Below, piece by piece: positions 35,786-44,416 of a stretch of DNA of 64,000 bases. The translations under genes were made by a program, and so were the position numbers. Under the pieces are notes generated by a model that was given only the letters and a program-made list of their open reading frames with translations, did no database searches and was not told where the DNA came from. Location: positions 6,138,001 to 6,202,000 of the forward strand of contig NZ_CP042997.1 in NCBI RefSeq assembly GCF_008087625.1. Reading direction: 5' to 3'. Each line of letters starts with the position of its first letter. Position 1 is the first letter of the stretch. The stretch is from Aquisphaera giovannonii (GTDB lineage Bacteria > Planctomycetota > Planctomycetia > Isosphaerales > Isosphaeraceae).

Positions 35786-37111
35786 TCAGCCCGCGGCGGC
35801 GGCCAGGGCCTCGCGGGCGGCGTCGATGGTGTGGTCGATGTCGGCCTCGGTGTGGGCGGCGGAGACGAACGCGGCCTCGAACTGGCTGCACGGCAGGTAG
35901 ACGCCGCGGGCGAGCATCTCCCAGAAGAACCGGGCGAAGAGCGCGGTGTCGCTCCGCCTCGCGTCGTCGTAGTTGCGGACCGGGCCGTCGTGGAAGAAGA
36001 GCGTCAGCATGCTGCCGACGCGCTGGACGACGTGCGGGACCTTCGCGTCGCGGGCGGCGCGTCCCAGGCCCTCGGCCAGGCGGGCGGAGAGGGCTTCGAG
36101 CCTCTCGTAGGCGTGGCCCTCTCGCAGCGTCTCGAGCGTGGCGAGGCCGGCGGCCATCGCCAGCGGGTTGCCGGAGAGGGTGCCGGCCTGGAAGACGGGG
36201 CCGGCCGGGGAGACCCGGTCCATGACCTTGGCCGAGGAGCCGTAGGCCGCCGCGGGGAGGCCGCCGCCGACGATCTTGCCGAGCGTCGTCATGTCGGGCG
36301 TGACCCCGTAGAGCGCCTGGGCTCCGCCGTAGGCCACGCGGAAGCCCGTCATGACCTCGTCGAAGACGAGCAGCACGCCGTGCCGCTCGGTCAGCGCGCG
36401 GAGGGCCTCGAGGTATCCCGGGCCGGGGGGCACGAGGCCCATGTTGCCGGCGATCGGCTCGAGGAGGACCGCGGCGACCTCCCCGCGGTGCTGCTCCAGC
36501 AGGGCGGCCACGGCGTCGGCGTCGTTGAACGGGCAGAGCAGGGTATCCTTCGCGGCGCCGGCGGTGACGCCCGGGCTGTTGGGCGTCCCCAGCGTGGTCG
36601 CGGCGGAGCCAGCCTGGATGAGCAGGGCGTCGACGTGGCCGTGGTAGTGGCCGGCCATCTTGATGACCTTGTCGCGGCCGGTGGCGCCGCGGGCCAGCCG
36701 GATGGCGGACATCGTCGCCTCGGTCCCCGACGAGACGAAGCGGACCTTCTCGATCGACGGGACCGCCGCCGCCACGGCCTCGGCGATCTCCGCCTCGCGG
36801 ACCGTCGGGGCGCCGAAGCTCGTGCCCAGCTCGAGCGCCCGCGCCGCCGCCTCGCGGACGTGCGGGTGGCCGTGGCCGAGGATCATCGGCCCCCACGAGC
36901 CGATGTAGTCGATGTATTGATGCCCGTCGATGTCGAAGAGGTACGCCCCCTCGGCCTTCGCCATGAACGGGGGCTCGCCCCCGACCGCGCCGAACGCCCG
37001 GGCCGGGCTGTTCACGCCCCCGGGGATCACGCGGTTGGCGCGGGCGAAGGCCTCGTGGCTTTTCGGGAGCCGGAAGTCGGGGCGGGAGACGGCGGGGGTG
37101 CTTGGGCTCAT
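35786..37111 (-). CDS. hemL: Glutamate-1-semialdehyde 2,1-aminomutase
   Basis: 441 residues. This PLP enzyme makes 5-aminolevulinate from glutamate-1-semialdehyde in the C5 heme pathway. Motifs: RVIPGGVNSPARAFGAVGG, SSGTEATMSAIRLARGATGR (PLP phosphate), LLVFDEVMTGFRVAYGG and the Schiff-base Lys279 in TLGKIVGGGLPAAAYG. ATG 37111 lies 3 bases after the stop of the small membrane protein. It is the last gene of a run starting with hemB, which makes the next step (porphobilinogen), so the heme role is supported by context. Confidence 0.97.
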   Translation of the reverse strand: MSPSTPAVSRPDFRLPKSHEAFARANRVIPGGVNSPARAFGAVGGEPPFMAKAEGAYLFDIDGHQYIDYIGSWGPMILGHGHPHVREAAARALELGTSFGAPTVREAEIAEAVAAAVPSIEKVRFVSSGTEATMSAIRLARGATGRDKVIKMAGHYHGHVDALLIQAGSAATTLGTPNSPGVTAGAAKDTLLCPFNDADAVAALLEQHRGEVAAVLLEPIAGNMGLVPPGPGYLEALRALTERHGVLLVFDEVMTGFRVAYGGAQALYGVTPDMTTLGKIVGGGLPAAAYGSSAKVMDRVSPAGPVFQAGTLSGNPLAMAAGLATLETLREGHAYERLEALSARLAEGLGRAARDAKVPHVVQRVGSMLTLFFHDGPVRNYDDARRSDTALFARFFWEMLARGVYLPCSQFEAAFVSAAHTEADIDHTIDAAREALAAAAG

Positions 37112-37114
37112 TAC

Positions 37115-37318
37115 CTAGACCTGGTCCTTGTGGTGAAACCGTGGAACTCGAGCCTGCTTCTGTTCCTGTTTCGACCTGTCCGCCCAGCGGTCCGCGTCTC
37201 GCAGGATCGCCCGGAATTGCTTCGCGGACTCGACGAGGGCGATCACGATCGCGACGACGCCGAGCGCAATCCAGGCCCATGTTGCCGAGGGAGTCATCGG
37301 AGTGGGCCCTTTGGCCAT
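37115..37318 (-). CDS. Small single-pass membrane protein
   Basis: 67 residues. One transmembrane helix (WAWIALGVVAIVIALVESAK) follows a short N-terminus, and a basic, Gln/Arg-rich cytoplasmic tail follows (RWADRSKQEQKQARVPRFHH). It lies 10 bases after the Rpn gene and 3 bases before hemL, fully packed in the operon, which supports it being real. I do not recognise a family. Confidence 0.6.
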   Translation of the reverse strand: MAKGPTPMTPSATWAWIALGVVAIVIALVESAKQFRAILRDADRWADRSKQEQKQARVPRFHHKDQV

Positions 37319-37328
37319 GCAAAACCGT

Positions 37329-38216
37329 TCAGAGATTCACGGACGGGTTGGCGGAATCTCGAGGCACGTCGCGTAGGAGATCCTCCCAGTTCGTCGCCGA
37401 GTCGAGCCGGTCCGTCAATGCCTCAAGGGCGGCCTCATCGGTGATGCCGTCGAGCAGCTTCTCATCAGCCGCGCTGATGATCCCGAGCTTCCGGGAGCCG
37501 ATGCGTTTGAGGGCCTTTCGCAATCCGATAGCCTCTCCCTCGGCACGTCCCTCTCGGAGGATCTTCTGATACGTGGATGATTCGCGCATGTTCTCCACCC
37601 CCGTGATGACTCGGTCCACGATCTCGTCGGAGAACTTCAGGCCCATGAGGATGTACGTGGCGGTCCAGAGCGCCTTGAATTGGCCCTCGGGCGCCCCGGC
37701 CTCGAGCTTGCGCCGGATGGCCTGGAGGACGCCCGGCAGCCGCTCCTCGGTGACGTCCGCGATCGCGGCGAGGGGCGCGACCGCGGGGGCGGCCGAGAGG
37801 ATCGCCTCGGCGGGCAGCTCCCAGATCCGCACGACATTATAGCGGAAGTCGTGGCAGGGGTCGCCTCCGGGCAGCTCGCGGCGGTAGAGCCCTGCCATCG
37901 CCGGCCCGTCGGCCTCGCGGGCGAGCAGCAGGGCGACGCTCCGCACCGGGAGCTCATGCCGGTAGTGCACCAGGACGTTGTACCGCAGCATCCGGAGCGG
38001 GAGCGAGGCGTTGTAGCTGGTCTGGAACTCGACGTGGGCGAGCCAGGGCTCCGGCTCGTCCACGCGGATCACGGAGTCGGCCTCGGCGGTGACGGTGGAC
38101 AGCTCGGCGCTCTGGACCCGGGCCGGGCCGACGGGCCGGCGCAGCAGGACCTCCAGCAGCGGGCCGGGGGCCTCGCCGAAGATCTCCTTGAGGATCGCGT
38201 CGAACGGCTTCGCCAT
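37329..38216 (-). CDS. Rpn-type PD-(D/E)XK nuclease, copy 1
   Basis: 295 residues; ATG 38216 with GAGGAGG ten bases upstream. Rpn (recombination-promoting nuclease/putative transposase) family: N-terminal KPFDAILKEIFGEAPGPLLE, then DEPEPWLAHVEFQTSY, which carries the nuclease Asp and E-x-Q core, and MLRYNVLVHYRHELPVRSVA. The C-terminal part includes GRAEGEAIGLRKALKRIG. This copy shares a 191 bp identical 5' segment with copies 2 and 3 but diverges elsewhere. Rpn proteins cut DNA with little specificity and are often multi-copy; they act in the cytoplasm. Confidence 0.88.
   Translation of the reverse strand: MAKPFDAILKEIFGEAPGPLLEVLLRRPVGPARVQSAELSTVTAEADSVIRVDEPEPWLAHVEFQTSYNASLPLRMLRYNVLVHYRHELPVRSVALLLAREADGPAMAGLYRRELPGGDPCHDFRYNVVRIWELPAEAILSAAPAVAPLAAIADVTEERLPGVLQAIRRKLEAGAPEGQFKALWTATYILMGLKFSDEIVDRVITGVENMRESSTYQKILREGRAEGEAIGLRKALKRIGSRKLGIISAADEKLLDGITDEAALEALTDRLDSATNWEDLLRDVPRDSANPSVNL
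38020..38210. repeat. 191 bp segment shared by the three Rpn genes, copy 1
   Basis: Identical to 39822-40012 and one base different from 38940-39130. It encodes the nuclease N-terminal third. Identity at synonymous sites argues for recent duplication or gene conversion. Confidence 0.9.
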
Positions 38217-38248
38217 GACGGCTCGGCCTCCTCGCGAGGCAGGCCGCG

Positions 38249-39136
38249 TCAGCGCGGCTCGGGCCGGTCTCCCGAGTCGCGCGGGAGCTCGCCGAGGAGC
38301 TCGTCCCAGCCGTTGGTGAAGAGGACGCGCTCGCTGAGGCGCTCGAGCGTCTCGAGGTCGGCGACGCGGTCGACGGCCGCCTCGTGGGCCGGCTCGATCG
38401 CCCCGAACTTGATCCGGCCCAGCCGCTTGATCGTCCGCTTCAGCTCCTGGATCTGGCCCTTGACCACGCCCTCGTTGAGGATCTTCAGGTAGGTGGAGGA
38501 TTCCGCCATGTTTTCCACTCCGCTGATGAGATGGTCCGCGACTTCGGCCGAGAACTTCAGGCCCATGAGGATGTACGTGGCGGTCCAGAGCTTCCGGAAC
38601 CGGTCCTCGGGCGTCTCGGCCTCCAGCTTCTCCCTGATGGCGTGGAGGACGCCGGGGAGCCTATCCGCCGAGACGTCCGCGATCGCGGCGAGCGGGGCCA
38701 TCGCGGGATCGGCCGAGAGCAGCGACTCCGCGGGCCACTCCCAGAGTCTGATGGTATTGTAGCGGAATTCCAGGGAGGCGTCGTCACCGAGGGGAGCGGG
38801 GCGATAGATGCCGGTCATGGCCGGTCCGTTGGCTTCCTTGCACAACAGCAGGGCGATGCTCCGCACCGGGAGGCGGTGGCGGTAGTGGGCCAGGACGTTG
38901 TAGCGGAGCATGCGCAGCGGCAGGGCCGGGTCGTAGCTGGTCTGGAACTCGACGTGGGCGAGCCAGGGCTCCGGCTCGTCCACGCGGATCACGGAGTCGG
39001 CCTCGGCGGTGACGGTGGACAGCTCGGCGCTCTGGACCCGGGCCGGGCCGACGGGCCGGCGCAGCAGGACCTCCAGCAGCGGGCCGGGGGCCTCGCCGAA
39101 GATCTCCCTGAGGATCGCGTCGAACGGCTTCGCCAT
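38249..39136 (-). CDS. Rpn-type PD-(D/E)XK nuclease, copy 2
   Basis: 295 residues. The N-terminal third, including DEPEPWLAHVEFQTSY, is the same as in copies 1 and 3. The middle (about residues 100-220) is distinct, with a lower identity to either. The C-terminus (QELKRTIKRLGRIKFGAIEP onward) is shared with copy 3 over 179 bp with one mismatch. It starts 6 bases after copy 3 ends and lacks its own Shine-Dalgarno, so translation is probably coupled. Confidence 0.88.
   Translation of the reverse strand: MAKPFDAILREIFGEAPGPLLEVLLRRPVGPARVQSAELSTVTAEADSVIRVDEPEPWLAHVEFQTSYDPALPLRMLRYNVLAHYRHRLPVRSIALLLCKEANGPAMTGIYRPAPLGDDASLEFRYNTIRLWEWPAESLLSADPAMAPLAAIADVSADRLPGVLHAIREKLEAETPEDRFRKLWTATYILMGLKFSAEVADHLISGVENMAESSTYLKILNEGVVKGQIQELKRTIKRLGRIKFGAIEPAHEAAVDRVADLETLERLSERVLFTNGWDELLGELPRDSGDRPEPR
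38274..38452. repeat. 179 bp segment shared by Rpn copies 2 and 3 (first)
   Basis: Differs from 39168-39346 at one base. Encodes the C-terminal about 60 residues of the nuclease. Confidence 0.88.
38940..39130. repeat. 191 bp segment shared by the three Rpn genes, copy 2
   Basis: One base (CTCCCTGAGG against CTCCTTGAGG) separates it from the other two copies. Confidence 0.9.
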
Positions 39137-39142
39137 GGCGAC

Positions 39143-40018
39143 TCAGCGCGTCTCGGCCGGGCCGCCGGAGTCGCGCGGGAGCTCGCCGAGGAGCTCGTCC
39201 CAGCCGTTGGCGAAGAGGACGCGCTCGCTGAGGCGCTCGAGCGTCTCGAGGTCGGCGACGCGGTCGACGGCCGCCTCGTGGGCCGGCTCGATCGCCCCGA
39301 ACTTGATCCGGCCCAGCCGCTTGATCGTCCGCTTCAGCTCCTGGATGCCTCCCTGTCGGAGGATCTTCAGGTAGGTGGAGGATTCCGCCATGTCTTCCAC
39401 TCCGGTGATGAGTCGGTCCACCAGCTCGTTCGGGAACTTCAACCCCATCAGGATGTACGTGGCCGTCCAGAGCTTCCGGAATTTGTCGCTGGCGATCTCG
39501 CGTCCCATCGTCTGGCTGATGGCCTGGAGGACTCCGGGGAGTTCCTGCTCGGTCACGTCGGCGAGGGTGGCCAGCGGGGCGGCGGACGGGCCGGCCGCGA
39601 TGACCTCCTCCGCGGACCACTCCCAGAGCCTCACGACATTATACCGGAATTCGAGCCGAGGTTCGGCCCCCGGGAATGCGGCCCCGTAATGGCCGCTCAG
39701 TGCCGGGCCGTCTGCTTCGCGTGCAAGCAGGAGGGCGATGCTGAGTACCGGGAGGCGGTGGCGGTAGTGGGCCAAGGCGTTGTACCGCAACATGCGCAGC
39801 GGTAGCGAGGCGTCGTAGCTCGTCTGGAACTCGACGTGGGCGAGCCAGGGCTCCGGCTCGTCCACGCGGATCACGGAGTCGGCCTCGGCGGTGACGGTGG
39901 ACAGCTCGGCGCTCTGGACCCGGGCCGGGCCGACGGGCCGGCGCAGCAGGACCTCCAGCAGCGGGCCGGGGGCCTCGCCGAAGATCTCCTTGAGGATCGC
40001 GTCGAACGGCTTGGACAT
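39143..40018 (-). CDS. Rpn-type PD-(D/E)XK nuclease, copy 3
   Basis: 291 residues, first of the three in transcription order and 6 bases after hemB. It has the same N-terminal nuclease third (DEPEPWLAHVEFQTSY) and the same C-terminus as copy 2, with a private middle containing LPGVLQAISQTMGREIASD. It is four residues shorter than the others because a short GVVKGQ-like stretch near residue 230 is missing. The three copies sit between two heme biosynthesis genes in one transcript, an odd place for a nuclease. Confidence 0.88.
   Translation of the reverse strand: MSKPFDAILKEIFGEAPGPLLEVLLRRPVGPARVQSAELSTVTAEADSVIRVDEPEPWLAHVEFQTSYDASLPLRMLRYNALAHYRHRLPVLSIALLLAREADGPALSGHYGAAFPGAEPRLEFRYNVVRLWEWSAEEVIAAGPSAAPLATLADVTEQELPGVLQAISQTMGREIASDKFRKLWTATYILMGLKFPNELVDRLITGVEDMAESSTYLKILRQGGIQELKRTIKRLGRIKFGAIEPAHEAAVDRVADLETLERLSERVLFANGWDELLGELPRDSGGPAETR
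39168..39346. repeat. 179 bp segment shared by Rpn copies 2 and 3 (second)
   Basis: Partner of 38274-38452; GTTGGCGAAG replaces GTTGGTGAAG. Confidence 0.88.
39822..40012. repeat. 191 bp segment shared by the three Rpn genes, copy 3
   Basis: Identical to 38020-38210. Confidence 0.9.
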
Positions 40019-40024
40019 GGCGCG

Positions 40025-41032
40025 TCAGCCCTCGCGGAGCCACCTCGCCACGTCCGGGGCGTGATAGGTGAGGATCATGTCGATGCCGGCGCGCTTGAAG
40101 CCGGTCAGCGTCTCCAGGACGATCCGACGCTCGTCGATCCAGCCGTTGCGGGCGGCCGCCTTGACCATGGCGTACTCTCCGGAGACGTTGTAGGCGGCCA
40201 GGGGGACGCCGAAGGTGTCCTTGATCCGGCGGGCGACGTCCAGGTAGGCGAGCGCCGGCTTCACCATGACGATGTCGGCGCCCTCGGCCAGGTCGAGGGC
40301 CGCCTCGCGGATCGCCTCGTCGCCGTTGGCCGGGTCCATCTGGTAGCTCCGGCGGTCGCCGAAGGCGGGGGCGCTCTCGGCCGCCTCGCGGAACGGGCCG
40401 TAGTAGCCGCTGGCGAACTTGGCCGAGTAGGCCATGATCGGGGTCCCCGTGAAGCCCTCGGCGTCGAGGCCCTCGCGGATGGCCTTCACCATGCCGTCCA
40501 TCATCCCCGACGGGGCGATCACGTCTGCGCCCGCCCGGGCGTGGCTGACGGCCTGGCGGGCCAGGAGCGGGAGCGTCGCGTCGTTGTCCACGTCGAGCCG
40601 GCCGCCCCGGTCCGAGAGCGGGCCGCAGTGGCCGTGGTCGGTGTACTCGCAGAAGCAGAGGTCCGTGATCACCAGGAGCTCGGGCGCCTGCCGCTTGGCG
40701 ATGGAGACGGCCTCCTGGACGATGCCGTCGTCGCGGCAGGCCGCGGAGCCGAAGGCGTCCTTGGAGTCCGGGATGCCGAAGAGGAGGATCGCCGGGATCC
40801 GCAGCTCGACCACCTCGTCGATCGCCTCGCGGAAGCGGTCGAGCGAGAGCTGGAACTGCCCGGGCATCGAGGGGATCTCCCGCCTCAGGTTCGTGCCGTG
40901 GTAGACGAACAGCGGGTAGATGAGGTCGTCCACCCCCAGGCGGTTCTCTCGCGTCAGGTCGCGGAGGCGGGGGTGGGCGCGGAGGCGCCTGGGGCGGTGG
41001 AGCGGGTAGCCGGCCGTCGGCTGGAAGGTCAT
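40025..41032 (-). CDS. hemB: Delta-aminolevulinic acid dehydratase (porphobilinogen synthase)
   Basis: 335 residues. It condenses two 5-aminolevulinates to porphobilinogen. The zinc site is intact: C126, C128 and C136 in [14 protein letters not shown], so this is the Zn-dependent form. Schiff-base lysines are K205 ([14 protein letters not shown]) and K258 ([13 protein letters not shown]). ATG 41032 has GAGGA nine bases upstream. It heads a run of six same-strand genes with gaps of 3-32 bases that ends in hemL. Confidence 0.97.
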
Positions 41033-41164: not shown

Positions 41165-44100
41165 TCAGTGGCCCCGCTTGCCGTGGCCCGGCGGGGGCAG
41201 GGGCGCCAGCCGGATCTCGGTGTTGTTGGCGTCGTAGCAGTCGAGGTGCAGGTGCTCGGCCGCCACGTTCTCCTTGAAGCCGACCTGGATGGTCATGTTG
41301 GAATCGGCCTCGATGCGGGCGATCTCCTTCCGCTTGCGGTTGTTCAGGTAGGTCGCCACGCTCGAGCTGACGGTGACGTTGATGCGGCGGATCTCCTCGC
41401 GGTGCGAGGCCAGCGCCAGCAGCCGCATGACGTCGATGGCCATGCTCTCGGCCGTCTTGACGACGCCGGAGCCGGTGCAGTTGGGGCAGTCCTCGTAGAC
41501 CGACCGCTTGAGGCTGGGGCGGATCCGCTGGCGGGTCATCTCGATGAGGCCGAAGGCGCTCATGCGGAGGATCTTGGTCCTCGCGCGGTCGCGCTTGATC
41601 GCCTCGCGGAGGGCCCGCTCGACGCCGCGGCGGTGCCGCTCCTCGCGCATGTCGATGAAGTCGTTGACGATGACGCCGCCGAGGTCGCGGAGCCGCAGCT
41701 GGCGGGCGATCTCGCGGGCGGCGCGGAGGTTCATCTCGTAGGCGGTCTTCTCGGCGTCGTCCTCCACGCGGAAGTTGCCCGAGTTGACGTCGATGGCCAC
41801 GAGGGCCTCGGTCTGGTCGATGACGATGGAGCCGCCCTCCGGCAGCGGGACGTGCCGCCGCTGGATCTTGGCGATCTCGTCCTCGATGCCGTACTTGTGG
41901 AACAGCGGCACCTTCTCTTCGTACAGCTTGATCCGGTTGACGAACCGGGGCATGACCACCCGGAGGAACTCCTGGGCCCGCTCGAAGGCGGCCGGCTCGT
42001 CGATCCAGATGGTGTCGATCTCGGACGTGAAGATGTCCCGGATGGTCCGGGTGATCATGTCCGATTCCTGGTAGATGGCGCCCGGGGTCCGGGTCTTCTT
42101 GATCCGCCGGAGGATCACCTTCCAGAGCCGCAGCAGGTAGGCGAGGTCGCGGGCGAGCTCCCGCTTGGATCGCTCCAGGCCGGCGGTGCGGACGATGAAG
42201 CCGAGCCCCTTGGGCGGGTTCAGCTCGTGCATGATCTCGCGGAGCTTGCGGCGCTGGCCCTCGTCGACGATCTTGCGGGAGACGCCGACGCGGTTCAGGC
42301 CCGGCATGAGCACCAGGTAGCGGCCGGGGATGCTGATGTAGGTGGAGAGGGTCGGGCCCTTGGTGCCGATGCTCTCCTTGATGACCTGGACGAGGACCTC
42401 GTCGCCGCGGCGGAAGATCTCCTGGATCGGGGGCTTGGAGGCGCCCCGCCCGCGGCCGGCCCGGCCGCCGCGCCCGGCGGCGTCCTCGCGTCGGGGGCGA
42501 GCCTCGGCGGGCCCGCGGAGGCCCATCTCCCGCTCGAGGGCCTCGATCTCCTCGATCTCCTTGCGGATCTCCTGCTCGAGCTCGGGGTCGATCTCCTCCT
42601 CGGCGACCCGGGGCGCGTCGGCCAGGTCGTCGTCGTGGAGCAGGTCCTCGTGGTCGTCGATGTCGACGTCGAGGCCGGCGACCTCCTCGATCTCGTCGAT
42701 CTCCTCGATGTCGAGCTCGCGGACCCCGGCGCGGCGGACGTCCTCCTCGTCCGCGTCGCGGCCGAAGGAGGGGCCGAAGTCGGCCTCGGCGGCCTCGTCG
42801 TCGAGCTCGGCGGCGAATTCATCCTGGGCGGGCGAGCCCGGCTCATCGATCCGGTCGCGGTCGCGCCGGCGGCCGCGTCGACGCCGCCGTCGCTTGCCGT
42901 CGCGGCCCTCGCCGCGGGCGTCGGCGGCCGCCTCGGGCGGGCCGAACGGCTCGTCGTCGGCGCCCAGGAACTCGCGGGACTCGATGTCCGGGACGTCGTC
43001 CCGGGCCGCCTCGGGCCAGGCGAAGGCGTCCGGCGCGGCCTCGGGGGACGGGTCGGCCGCCCTCAGCCGCTCGCGGCGGGGGACGTAGCCGGGCTCCCCG
43101 GCGCGGGCGTGGGGCCTGGCCCGCTCGCGGGGGGGCTCCGCCGGCTCGGCGGGCCGCACGCGCTCGGGCTCGTGCTCCGGCTGGGGCCGGGCGTACCGCG
43201 GCGGGGCGGGGGCGGGCTCCGGCGGGGCCGCCTCTCGCTCCCTCGGCCTCTCCCGATCGCGGTCGCGGTCCCGCTCGCCCTCGGCGCCGCGGGAGCGGAT
43301 CGCCGCGCGGCCGCCGCGGCGGCGGGGCTCGTCGGCCCTGGGCCCGGGCTCGAAGGCGTCCGGCTCGTCCTCGATCGGGGCCGCCGCGGCCCGCTCGTCC
43401 GGGGCCTCCAGGTCCTCGGCGTCGAAGGCCGAGGGCGCCCGGGGGGGGCGTCCGGCCGGCGGCGAGGGCCGGCCGCGGCCCCGGCCGCGATCGCGGCGCG
43501 GCTCCCTGGGGGCGAAGGACTCGATCTCCTCCTCGTCGCGGGCCTCGCGGGGCGGCTCGGCCTCCGGGGGCTCGGCCGGGCGATACCGCCCCCGCTCCGG
43601 GGCCTCGGCCTCGGCGGCCGGGGGCTGCGGGAGCCGCGACCGTTGCGTCCGGCTGGGGGGCAGGTCCGGGTCGAAGAAGTCGGCGGGGCGGGCCGATCGC
43701 CATCGCCCCTCGGCGGGCTCCTCCGGCGCGGCCTCCCGCTCCCGCTCCCTCTCCCGCTCATATTCCCAGCCGCGCTCCACGGCCTCGGTCCACGAGGCCC
43801 GCTCGACCTCCTCGCGCCTCTCGGCGGCCGGCTCGCGCGGCTCGGGGCGCGGGGGCTCGGGGGCCCGAGGCGGCTGGGGCAGCGGCCCCAGCTCGTCGGC
43901 GAGCCCTTCCCCGAAGGACCGCGGCGCCTCGGACCGGTCGCGGCGGCCGCGGATCGAGCGGTCCGGGCGCTCCCGGTCCCGGTCCCGGTCGCGGTCCCTG
44001 GGCGGGCGATCCTCGGAGCGGGGCGGCGGGAGCGACGGGGGGAGCGGCTCGCCGAAGGCGTCCGGCCTGGGCCGCCGCCGGTCCTCGCGGTCGCGGCGCG

Positions 44101-44416
44101 GCTCGCGCGGGCGGGCGCCCGGGGCCGGGAGCTGGGCCGCGCCGGGCTCCGGCTCGTCCTCGGCGGAGGCGGCCCCCTGGTAATACTGCGGCTCGACGTC
44201 GGAGACGTGGAGGAACCCGTTGCGGCCGACCGAGAAGTCCACGAACGCGGCCTGGATCGCCGGCTCGAGGTTCACGACCTTGCCCTTGTAGATGTTCCCC
44301 GTGTAGCTCTCGTGGCTGGTGCGCTCGACGTACAGCTCCTCCAGCACGCCGTTCTCGACGATGGCGATGCGGCATTCCTCGGGCTGGAGGACGTTGATCA
44401 GCATTTCTTTTTTCAT
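41165..44416 (-). CDS. rne: Ribonuclease E/G with a giant insertion in the S1 domain
   Basis: 1083 residues. The N-terminal half of the S1 domain is present (ECRIAIVENGVLEELYVER, GNIYKGKVVNLEPAIQAAFV, NGFLHVSDVEPQYYQG to about residue 82) and S1 resumes near 660 with RRGDEVLVQVIKESIGTKG. Between them lie about 575 residues rich in Arg, Glu, Pro and Ala, probably disordered. The catalytic part is complete: IDVNSGNF and DFIDMREERHRRG (Mg ligands), FGLIEMTRQRIRPSL and the zinc-link CPNC. It processes and decays RNA, usually as a degradosome scaffold. A domain this size normally sits C-terminal, not inside S1. Expected neighbour rplU is absent; a DUF2344 gene precedes. Confidence 0.92.
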   Translation of the reverse strand: MKKEMLINVLQPEECRIAIVENGVLEELYVERTSHESYTGNIYKGKVVNLEPAIQAAFVDFSVGRNGFLHVSDVEPQYYQGAASAEDEPEPGAAQLPAPGARPREPRRDREDRRRPRPDAFGEPLPPSLPPPRSEDRPPRDRDRDRDRERPDRSIRGRRDRSEAPRSFGEGLADELGPLPQPPRAPEPPRPEPREPAAERREEVERASWTEAVERGWEYEREREREREAAPEEPAEGRWRSARPADFFDPDLPPSRTQRSRLPQPPAAEAEAPERGRYRPAEPPEAEPPREARDEEEIESFAPREPRRDRGRGRGRPSPPAGRPPRAPSAFDAEDLEAPDERAAAAPIEDEPDAFEPGPRADEPRRRGGRAAIRSRGAEGERDRDRDRERPREREAAPPEPAPAPPRYARPQPEHEPERVRPAEPAEPPRERARPHARAGEPGYVPRRERLRAADPSPEAAPDAFAWPEAARDDVPDIESREFLGADDEPFGPPEAAADARGEGRDGKRRRRRRGRRRDRDRIDEPGSPAQDEFAAELDDEAAEADFGPSFGRDADEEDVRRAGVRELDIEEIDEIEEVAGLDVDIDDHEDLLHDDDLADAPRVAEEEIDPELEQEIRKEIEEIEALEREMGLRGPAEARPRREDAAGRGGRAGRGRGASKPPIQEIFRRGDEVLVQVIKESIGTKGPTLSTYISIPGRYLVLMPGLNRVGVSRKIVDEGQRRKLREIMHELNPPKGLGFIVRTAGLERSKRELARDLAYLLRLWKVILRRIKKTRTPGAIYQESDMITRTIRDIFTSEIDTIWIDEPAAFERAQEFLRVVMPRFVNRIKLYEEKVPLFHKYGIEDEIAKIQRRHVPLPEGGSIVIDQTEALVAIDVNSGNFRVEDDAEKTAYEMNLRAAREIARQLRLRDLGGVIVNDFIDMREERHRRGVERALREAIKRDRARTKILRMSAFGLIEMTRQRIRPSLKRSVYEDCPNCTGSGVVKTAESMAIDVMRLLALASHREEIRRINVTVSSSVATYLNNRKRKEIARIEADSNMTIQVGFKENVAAEHLHLDCYDANNTEIRLAPLPPPGHGKRGH

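Follow-up and report, generated by a model that had tools for sequence, protein, structure and literature searches.

What could place three related nuclease genes in a row between two heme genes, with nearly identical blocks and strongly different middles? This arrangement was found in the window analyzed here, a stretch of 64,000 nucleotides from the planctomycete Aquisphaera giovannonii, whose genome comprises 10.5 Mb on three contigs. On the minus strand, hemB (porphobilinogen synthase, 40,025 to 41,032) is followed by three co-directional, intact open reading frames, A (39,143 to 40,018; 291 aa), B (38,249 to 39,136; 295 aa) and C (37,329 to 38,216; 295 aa), then by an open reading frame of 67 aa (37,115 to 37,318) and finally by hemL (glutamate-1-semialdehyde aminomutase, 35,786 to 37,111). 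A reveals an identity of 79% to B and, to C, values of 66-67%; C, the last gene of the array, has a divergent C-terminal module. The gaps measure 6 nt (hemB to A), 6 nt (A to B), 32 nt (B to C), 10 nt (C to the 67-aa frame) and 3 nt (from there to hemL). The list of open reading frames thus bears out exactly the three Rpn-like genes with short gaps between hemB and hemL described in an earlier note on this DNA, and the gaps of 6-32 bases given there apply to hemB-A, A-B and B-C; missing from that description was the 67-aa frame between C and hemL. It encodes a hydrophobic N-terminal half and a charged tail, and a 42% identical relative lies at the same place in A. insulae JC669, the genome of the same genus used for comparison throughout. 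On the other side of hemB, at 41,165 to 44,416 of the minus strand, we noted an RNase E/G-like protein of 1083 aa, in which an S1-like start (GNIYKGKV..NGFLHVSDV) and the remainder (PPIQEIFRRGDEVLVQ...) are split by about 600 aa of low-complexity sequence rich in R, E and P.

The three proteins are divergent Rpn relatives with a predicted PD-(D/E)XK nuclease core. For B, an AlphaFold model with a pLDDT of 80.5 places this core at residues 1-135; its best fold match is EndoMS, with Z 9.8 and an rmsd of 2.9 across 103 residues, and further matches are mostly PD-(D/E)XK nucleases, including Can2, PaqCI and Card1. All three proteins carry D6, D47 and E63-x-Q65 near the N-terminus. In a comparison of motif and spacing only, these correspond by order and by the E-x-Q spacing to D11, D63, E82 and Q84 of RpnA (YhgA) from E. 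coli K-12, residues that were shown to be necessary there (Kingston et al. 2017, PMC5350276), and nuclease activity is predicted here. D47 is invariant among 34 homologs, while the Q of the ExQ motif is an E in one related genus. A tblastn search with B reached a Synechocystis Rpn at E 3e-10 and Nostoc DUF4351 proteins at 1e-9; these Rpn/DUF4351 matches on cyanobacterial plasmids cover 79-96% of the protein, with identities of 25-29%, and differ in their location from A, B and C, which are chromosomal, tandem and set in a single operon. Among the 34 homologs, 15 matched TIGR01784 and 13 matched DUF4351 (PF14261), the best at 1.1e-6. With scores of 13.6-18.2 bits against a curated cut-off of 52.1, A, B and C themselves fall outside the NCBIfam TIGR01784 subfamily model. 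PF04754 did not match them, a Pfam search with the three proteins alone returned nothing meaningful, DUF4351 (PF14261) included, neither PHROGs nor PADLOC gave a match, and a comparison of the sequence profile with PDB chains found no relative.

Alignment of the genes revealed a mosaic. An N-terminal block, gene nt 7-195 (codons 3-65), is exactly the same in A (39,824 to 40,012) and C (38,022 to 38,210) and differs in B (38,942 to 39,130) at nt 29 only; D6, D47, E63 and Q65 all lie inside it. In A and B, the region beyond codon 209 begins with 35 nt of full identity, which start 2 nt before an internal ATG (39,359 to 39,393 in A); a repeat box comes next, and then a stretch of 179 bp with one mismatch (39,168 to 39,346 in A, 38,274 to 38,452 in B). 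Between these ends, at aa 67-200, the DNA identity of the three genes is only 67-81%. The common N-terminal segment, in which no two genes differ at more than one site, the further 179 bp of A and B and the strongly differing middle were therefore all described correctly in the earlier note. Uniform identity along the genes, which it had named as speaking against a mosaic, was not seen, nor did the same three distinct genes occur in distant genomes without exchange. The longest identical runs of variable sites, 84 for A-B, 35 for A-C and 34 for B-C, were reached in none of the 10,000 shuffles made for each pair, and the pattern of shared blocks is not due to chance.

The silent sites reveal how the blocks arose. 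Among A, B and C, synonymous difference (pS) is 0-0.02 in the N-terminal block and 0.00 in the C-terminal block of A and B, compared with 0.29-0.56 in the middle. We conclude that gene conversion homogenized the N-terminal block in all three genes and the C-terminal block in A and B, because these blocks are free of silent and amino-acid differences alike, and between species their silent sites are not conserved. If the N-terminal block were instead kept identical by a constraint at the nucleotide level, such as an RNA structure or an overlapping signal, its identical silent sites and its position at the gene start would be explained; yet to A. insulae it shows 26-37% synonymous difference, in the range of hemB (pS 0.27) and hemL (0.26), so that its silent sites are free to change, and 28% separates the two copies of A. 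insulae itself. Such a constraint was rejected and is the least probable of the readings considered here.

Gene conversion, domain exchange and diversifying selection on the middle had all been proposed for this locus. The first agrees with the blocks free of silent differences in a region that has silently diverged between species. For the last, one would assume a recent triplication followed by selection on the protein middles, which would account for strongly different middles beside identical ends. Selection on amino acids, however, would leave silent sites unchanged, and the silent divergence of the middle speaks against it: pS among the three genes is about as high there as pS to A. insulae (0.33-0.74) and exceeds the values of hemB and hemL. 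The duplication therefore predates the split of the two species, and the middles look different because they are old, with a silent divergence at least as large as that to A. insulae. Moreover, pN lies well below pS in the middle (for A-B 0.21 vs 0.54), and pN is smaller than pS through the middle and all long segments of A, B and C, the ratio being meaningless where conversion leaves one or two differences. Diversifying selection on the middle was rejected on these grounds, and a recent triplication with subsequent selection is very improbable. The near-zero pS of the N-terminal block next to an old middle indicates that the copying of this block is much younger than the duplication.

Domain exchange fared in between. 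The C-terminal module of C is indeed an outlier, with pS of 0.58-0.63 and pN of about 0.42 to A, B and the copy of A. insulae between its hem genes, while the modules of A and B differ from this copy at pS 0.31 and pN 0.20; a donor was not found in the same genome or in 36 relatives. Among the degenerate codons counted, the third position is G or C in 100% within the two converted tracts, in 86-95% within the middle and in 81% within the C-terminal part peculiar to C. This pattern is compatible with GC-biased conversion, although statistically weak, as a test of fourfold sites was significant for A only and the polarized counts were too small.

The internal ATG lies at codon 210. E. coli and C. 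difficile produce, besides full-length Rpn, its C-terminal part as a separate protein, RpnS, and in E. coli RpnS blocks the toxic full-length protein (PMC10327210). The ATG is kept in 31 of the 34 homologs. A motif GGAG, GAGG or AGGA precedes it in 23 of these 31, compared with 25 of 171 in-frame ATGs elsewhere inside the genes. Gly206 is encoded by GGA in 16 of 23 genes, where 3.07 would be expected from the same genes (P ~1e-10, kinship ignored), and counted by genus-level group the ratio is 8 of 11 against 1.18 (P ~1e-6). C uses GGG at this codon, but has a GGAG nearer its ATG. This bias at silent sites indicates that an internal ribosome site before codon 210 has been selected, and each of A, B and C probably carries its own built-in antidote gene, rpnS. 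The predicted genes would encode 82 aa in A (39,143 to 39,391, with GGAG upstream), 86 aa in B (38,249 to 38,509) and 86 aa in C (37,329 to 37,589); conservation of the Met points to all three, in A and B together with the wobble bias towards GGA and in C together with a helical model. This model of the predicted RpnS of C reached a pLDDT of 75.7, and a fold search of the PDB gave no significant match to it; the RpnA-S crystal structure 7TH0, a three-helix bundle, was not among the matches, an outcome that weighs neither for nor against such a bundle in C.

In E. coli, the helix after the RpnS start varies in repeats of 4 aa, and one added repeat abolished pairing in the case tested (PMC10327210). 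Repeats of 4 aa located 8-20 residues after the internal Met are a criterion of the Rpn family, and here the units begin 12-13 residues after it. The length from this Met to the FG motif equals 32 + 4n in 24 of the 34 homologs, and 6 more fall into one other offset class. The genes between hemB and hemL contain 0 (A), 1 (B) and 1 (C) units in the window, 3 in A. insulae, 0 in genome G001 and 0, 1 and 2 in three species of a second genus. The sequence shared by A and B, which spans nearly all of rpnS together with the 2 nt ahead of its ATG, is broken solely by the repeat box, which occupies 39,347 to 39,358 in A and 38,453 to 38,476 in B; the nucleotide alignment reveals 8 substitutions and a 12-nt unit more in B, i.e., one 4-aa unit fewer in A. 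The box was either not converted or altered after conversion. Since RpnS modules change in whole steps of 4 aa and A and B are one step apart, each toxin may keep its own antidote, and by the published repeat rule A and B are predicted not to cross-neutralize.

Copies of the module standing alone were found as well. In L032:1501-2715 and L019:1459-2736 (G004), stand-alone RpnS copies lie directly 3' of their parent Rpn; they exceed it in the number of 4-aa units and may therefore fail to neutralize it. The module at L032:2419-2715 begins exactly at the aligned Met. In the genome of the window itself, a fourth Rpn relative (L004, at about 302 kb of the contig) is followed by two RpnS-like tail reading frames, which contain the Met aligned to the internal start or begin at it. 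Tail remnants are present in L004 and L107. Together with the frequent labelling of rpn genes as putative transposases, such remnants would suit selfish or transposase-like genes that have lost their function, are decaying and recombine at random. We consider this improbable, as the frames of A, B and C are intact, pN stays below pS, the catalytic residues and the internal start are retained, and rpn genes show no sign of self-transposition (PMC10327210).

The place between two heme genes, called unexpected for nucleases in the earlier note, turned out to be less unusual than that. Most members of the family have hemB next to hemL. Among 25 genomes with both genes adjacent on one contig, 17 have 22-101 nt between them, five, that of the window included, hold Rpn in the gap and three other sequence, namely a CNNM/CBS-like protein (G027), a small membrane-like protein (G010) and 579 bp (G019). 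The first two belong to another genus and were located at L104:3227-4525, as a CNNM/CBS-type membrane protein, and at L103:3319-3813, respectively. A single Rpn gene each occupies the slot in five other genomes from two genera, to which the second genus contributes three of its five species; the slot is therefore old and its occupation no freak insertion. Rpn may have entered it repeatedly or remained there by descent. In the tree, one clade for the Rpn genes of genera g1 and g17, the second copy of A. insulae included, was neither rejected (p-AU 0.387) nor shown. Judging from the spacing, A, B and C are likely co-transcribed with hemB and hemL. A scan for sigma-70 promoters found none, a negative that carries no information for planctomycetes.

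Within the family, Rpn presence is patchy (21 of 45 genomes). This distribution, like the occurrence of RpnS copies on their own with differing repeat numbers, favors a toxin-antitoxin role over that of nucleases with a housekeeping function in DNA repair or recombination, in which the repeat module would set the oligomer size only. The latter reading draws on the closest solved folds being repair endonucleases (EndoMS) and on the finding that overexpressed E. coli Rpn raises RecA-independent recombination (PMC5350276); we regard it as unlikely, if less so than that of decaying genes.

The array is most likely a three-gene Rpn toxin-antitoxin locus with built-in antidotes, and thus of a known system type. 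It probably represents a tandem set of three divergent Rpn nucleases, each with an inner antidote gene, that gene conversion has homogenized in parts. A single Rpn behind hemB would have been duplicated into the array before the split from A. insulae; later, gene conversion spread the catalytic block at the N-terminus through all three genes and copied the RpnS module between A and B. The full-length product, RpnL, would contribute the DNA-cleaving PD-(D/E)XK core, while the second start at codon 210 would yield RpnS, which is 82-86 aa long and consists of the C-terminal module only. If E. coli is a guide, RpnS would pair with RpnL through the long helix and silence it until it is triggered, for instance by phage infection, and the one-step difference between A and B may allow each toxin to retain its own antidote. 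A more far-reaching version, which we put forward as a doubtful possibility, sees three mutually non-cross-protecting pairs: conversion would refresh the core and spread RpnS, the box would escape or be rebuilt so that one step separates the specificities of A and B, and the essential hem operon would make loss of the array costly.

The closest known system is RpnL/RpnS of E. coli and C. difficile (Zhong et al. 2023, PMC10327210). Both share the N-terminal PD-(D/E)XK domain, a small C-terminal product from an internal ATG with a ribosome site (predicted here), a helix with 4-aa repeat variation, and tandem arrays, with an extra stand-alone RpnS downstream in some genomes. In contrast, A, B and C are far from the curated Rpn models, lie in a heme operon and are conversion mosaics. 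Type I restriction enzymes with TAEL repeats (EcoR124I/II; PMC10327210) likewise owe their specificity to the number of 4-aa units, but are unrelated proteins, and the number there sets the DNA spacer, whereas here it would set toxin-antitoxin pairing.

A and B form a natural pair within one genome, with antidote modules that are near-identical except for the repeat box, a contrast of one 4-aa unit and 8 base changes, and are suited to testing the published claim of repeat specificity. The gene-within-gene layout of Rpn toxin-antitoxin systems would extend to planctomycetes, with silent-site evidence for a selected internal ribosome site, and the array presents gene conversion as a means for Rpn arrays to hold a common catalytic core while their modules diverge.
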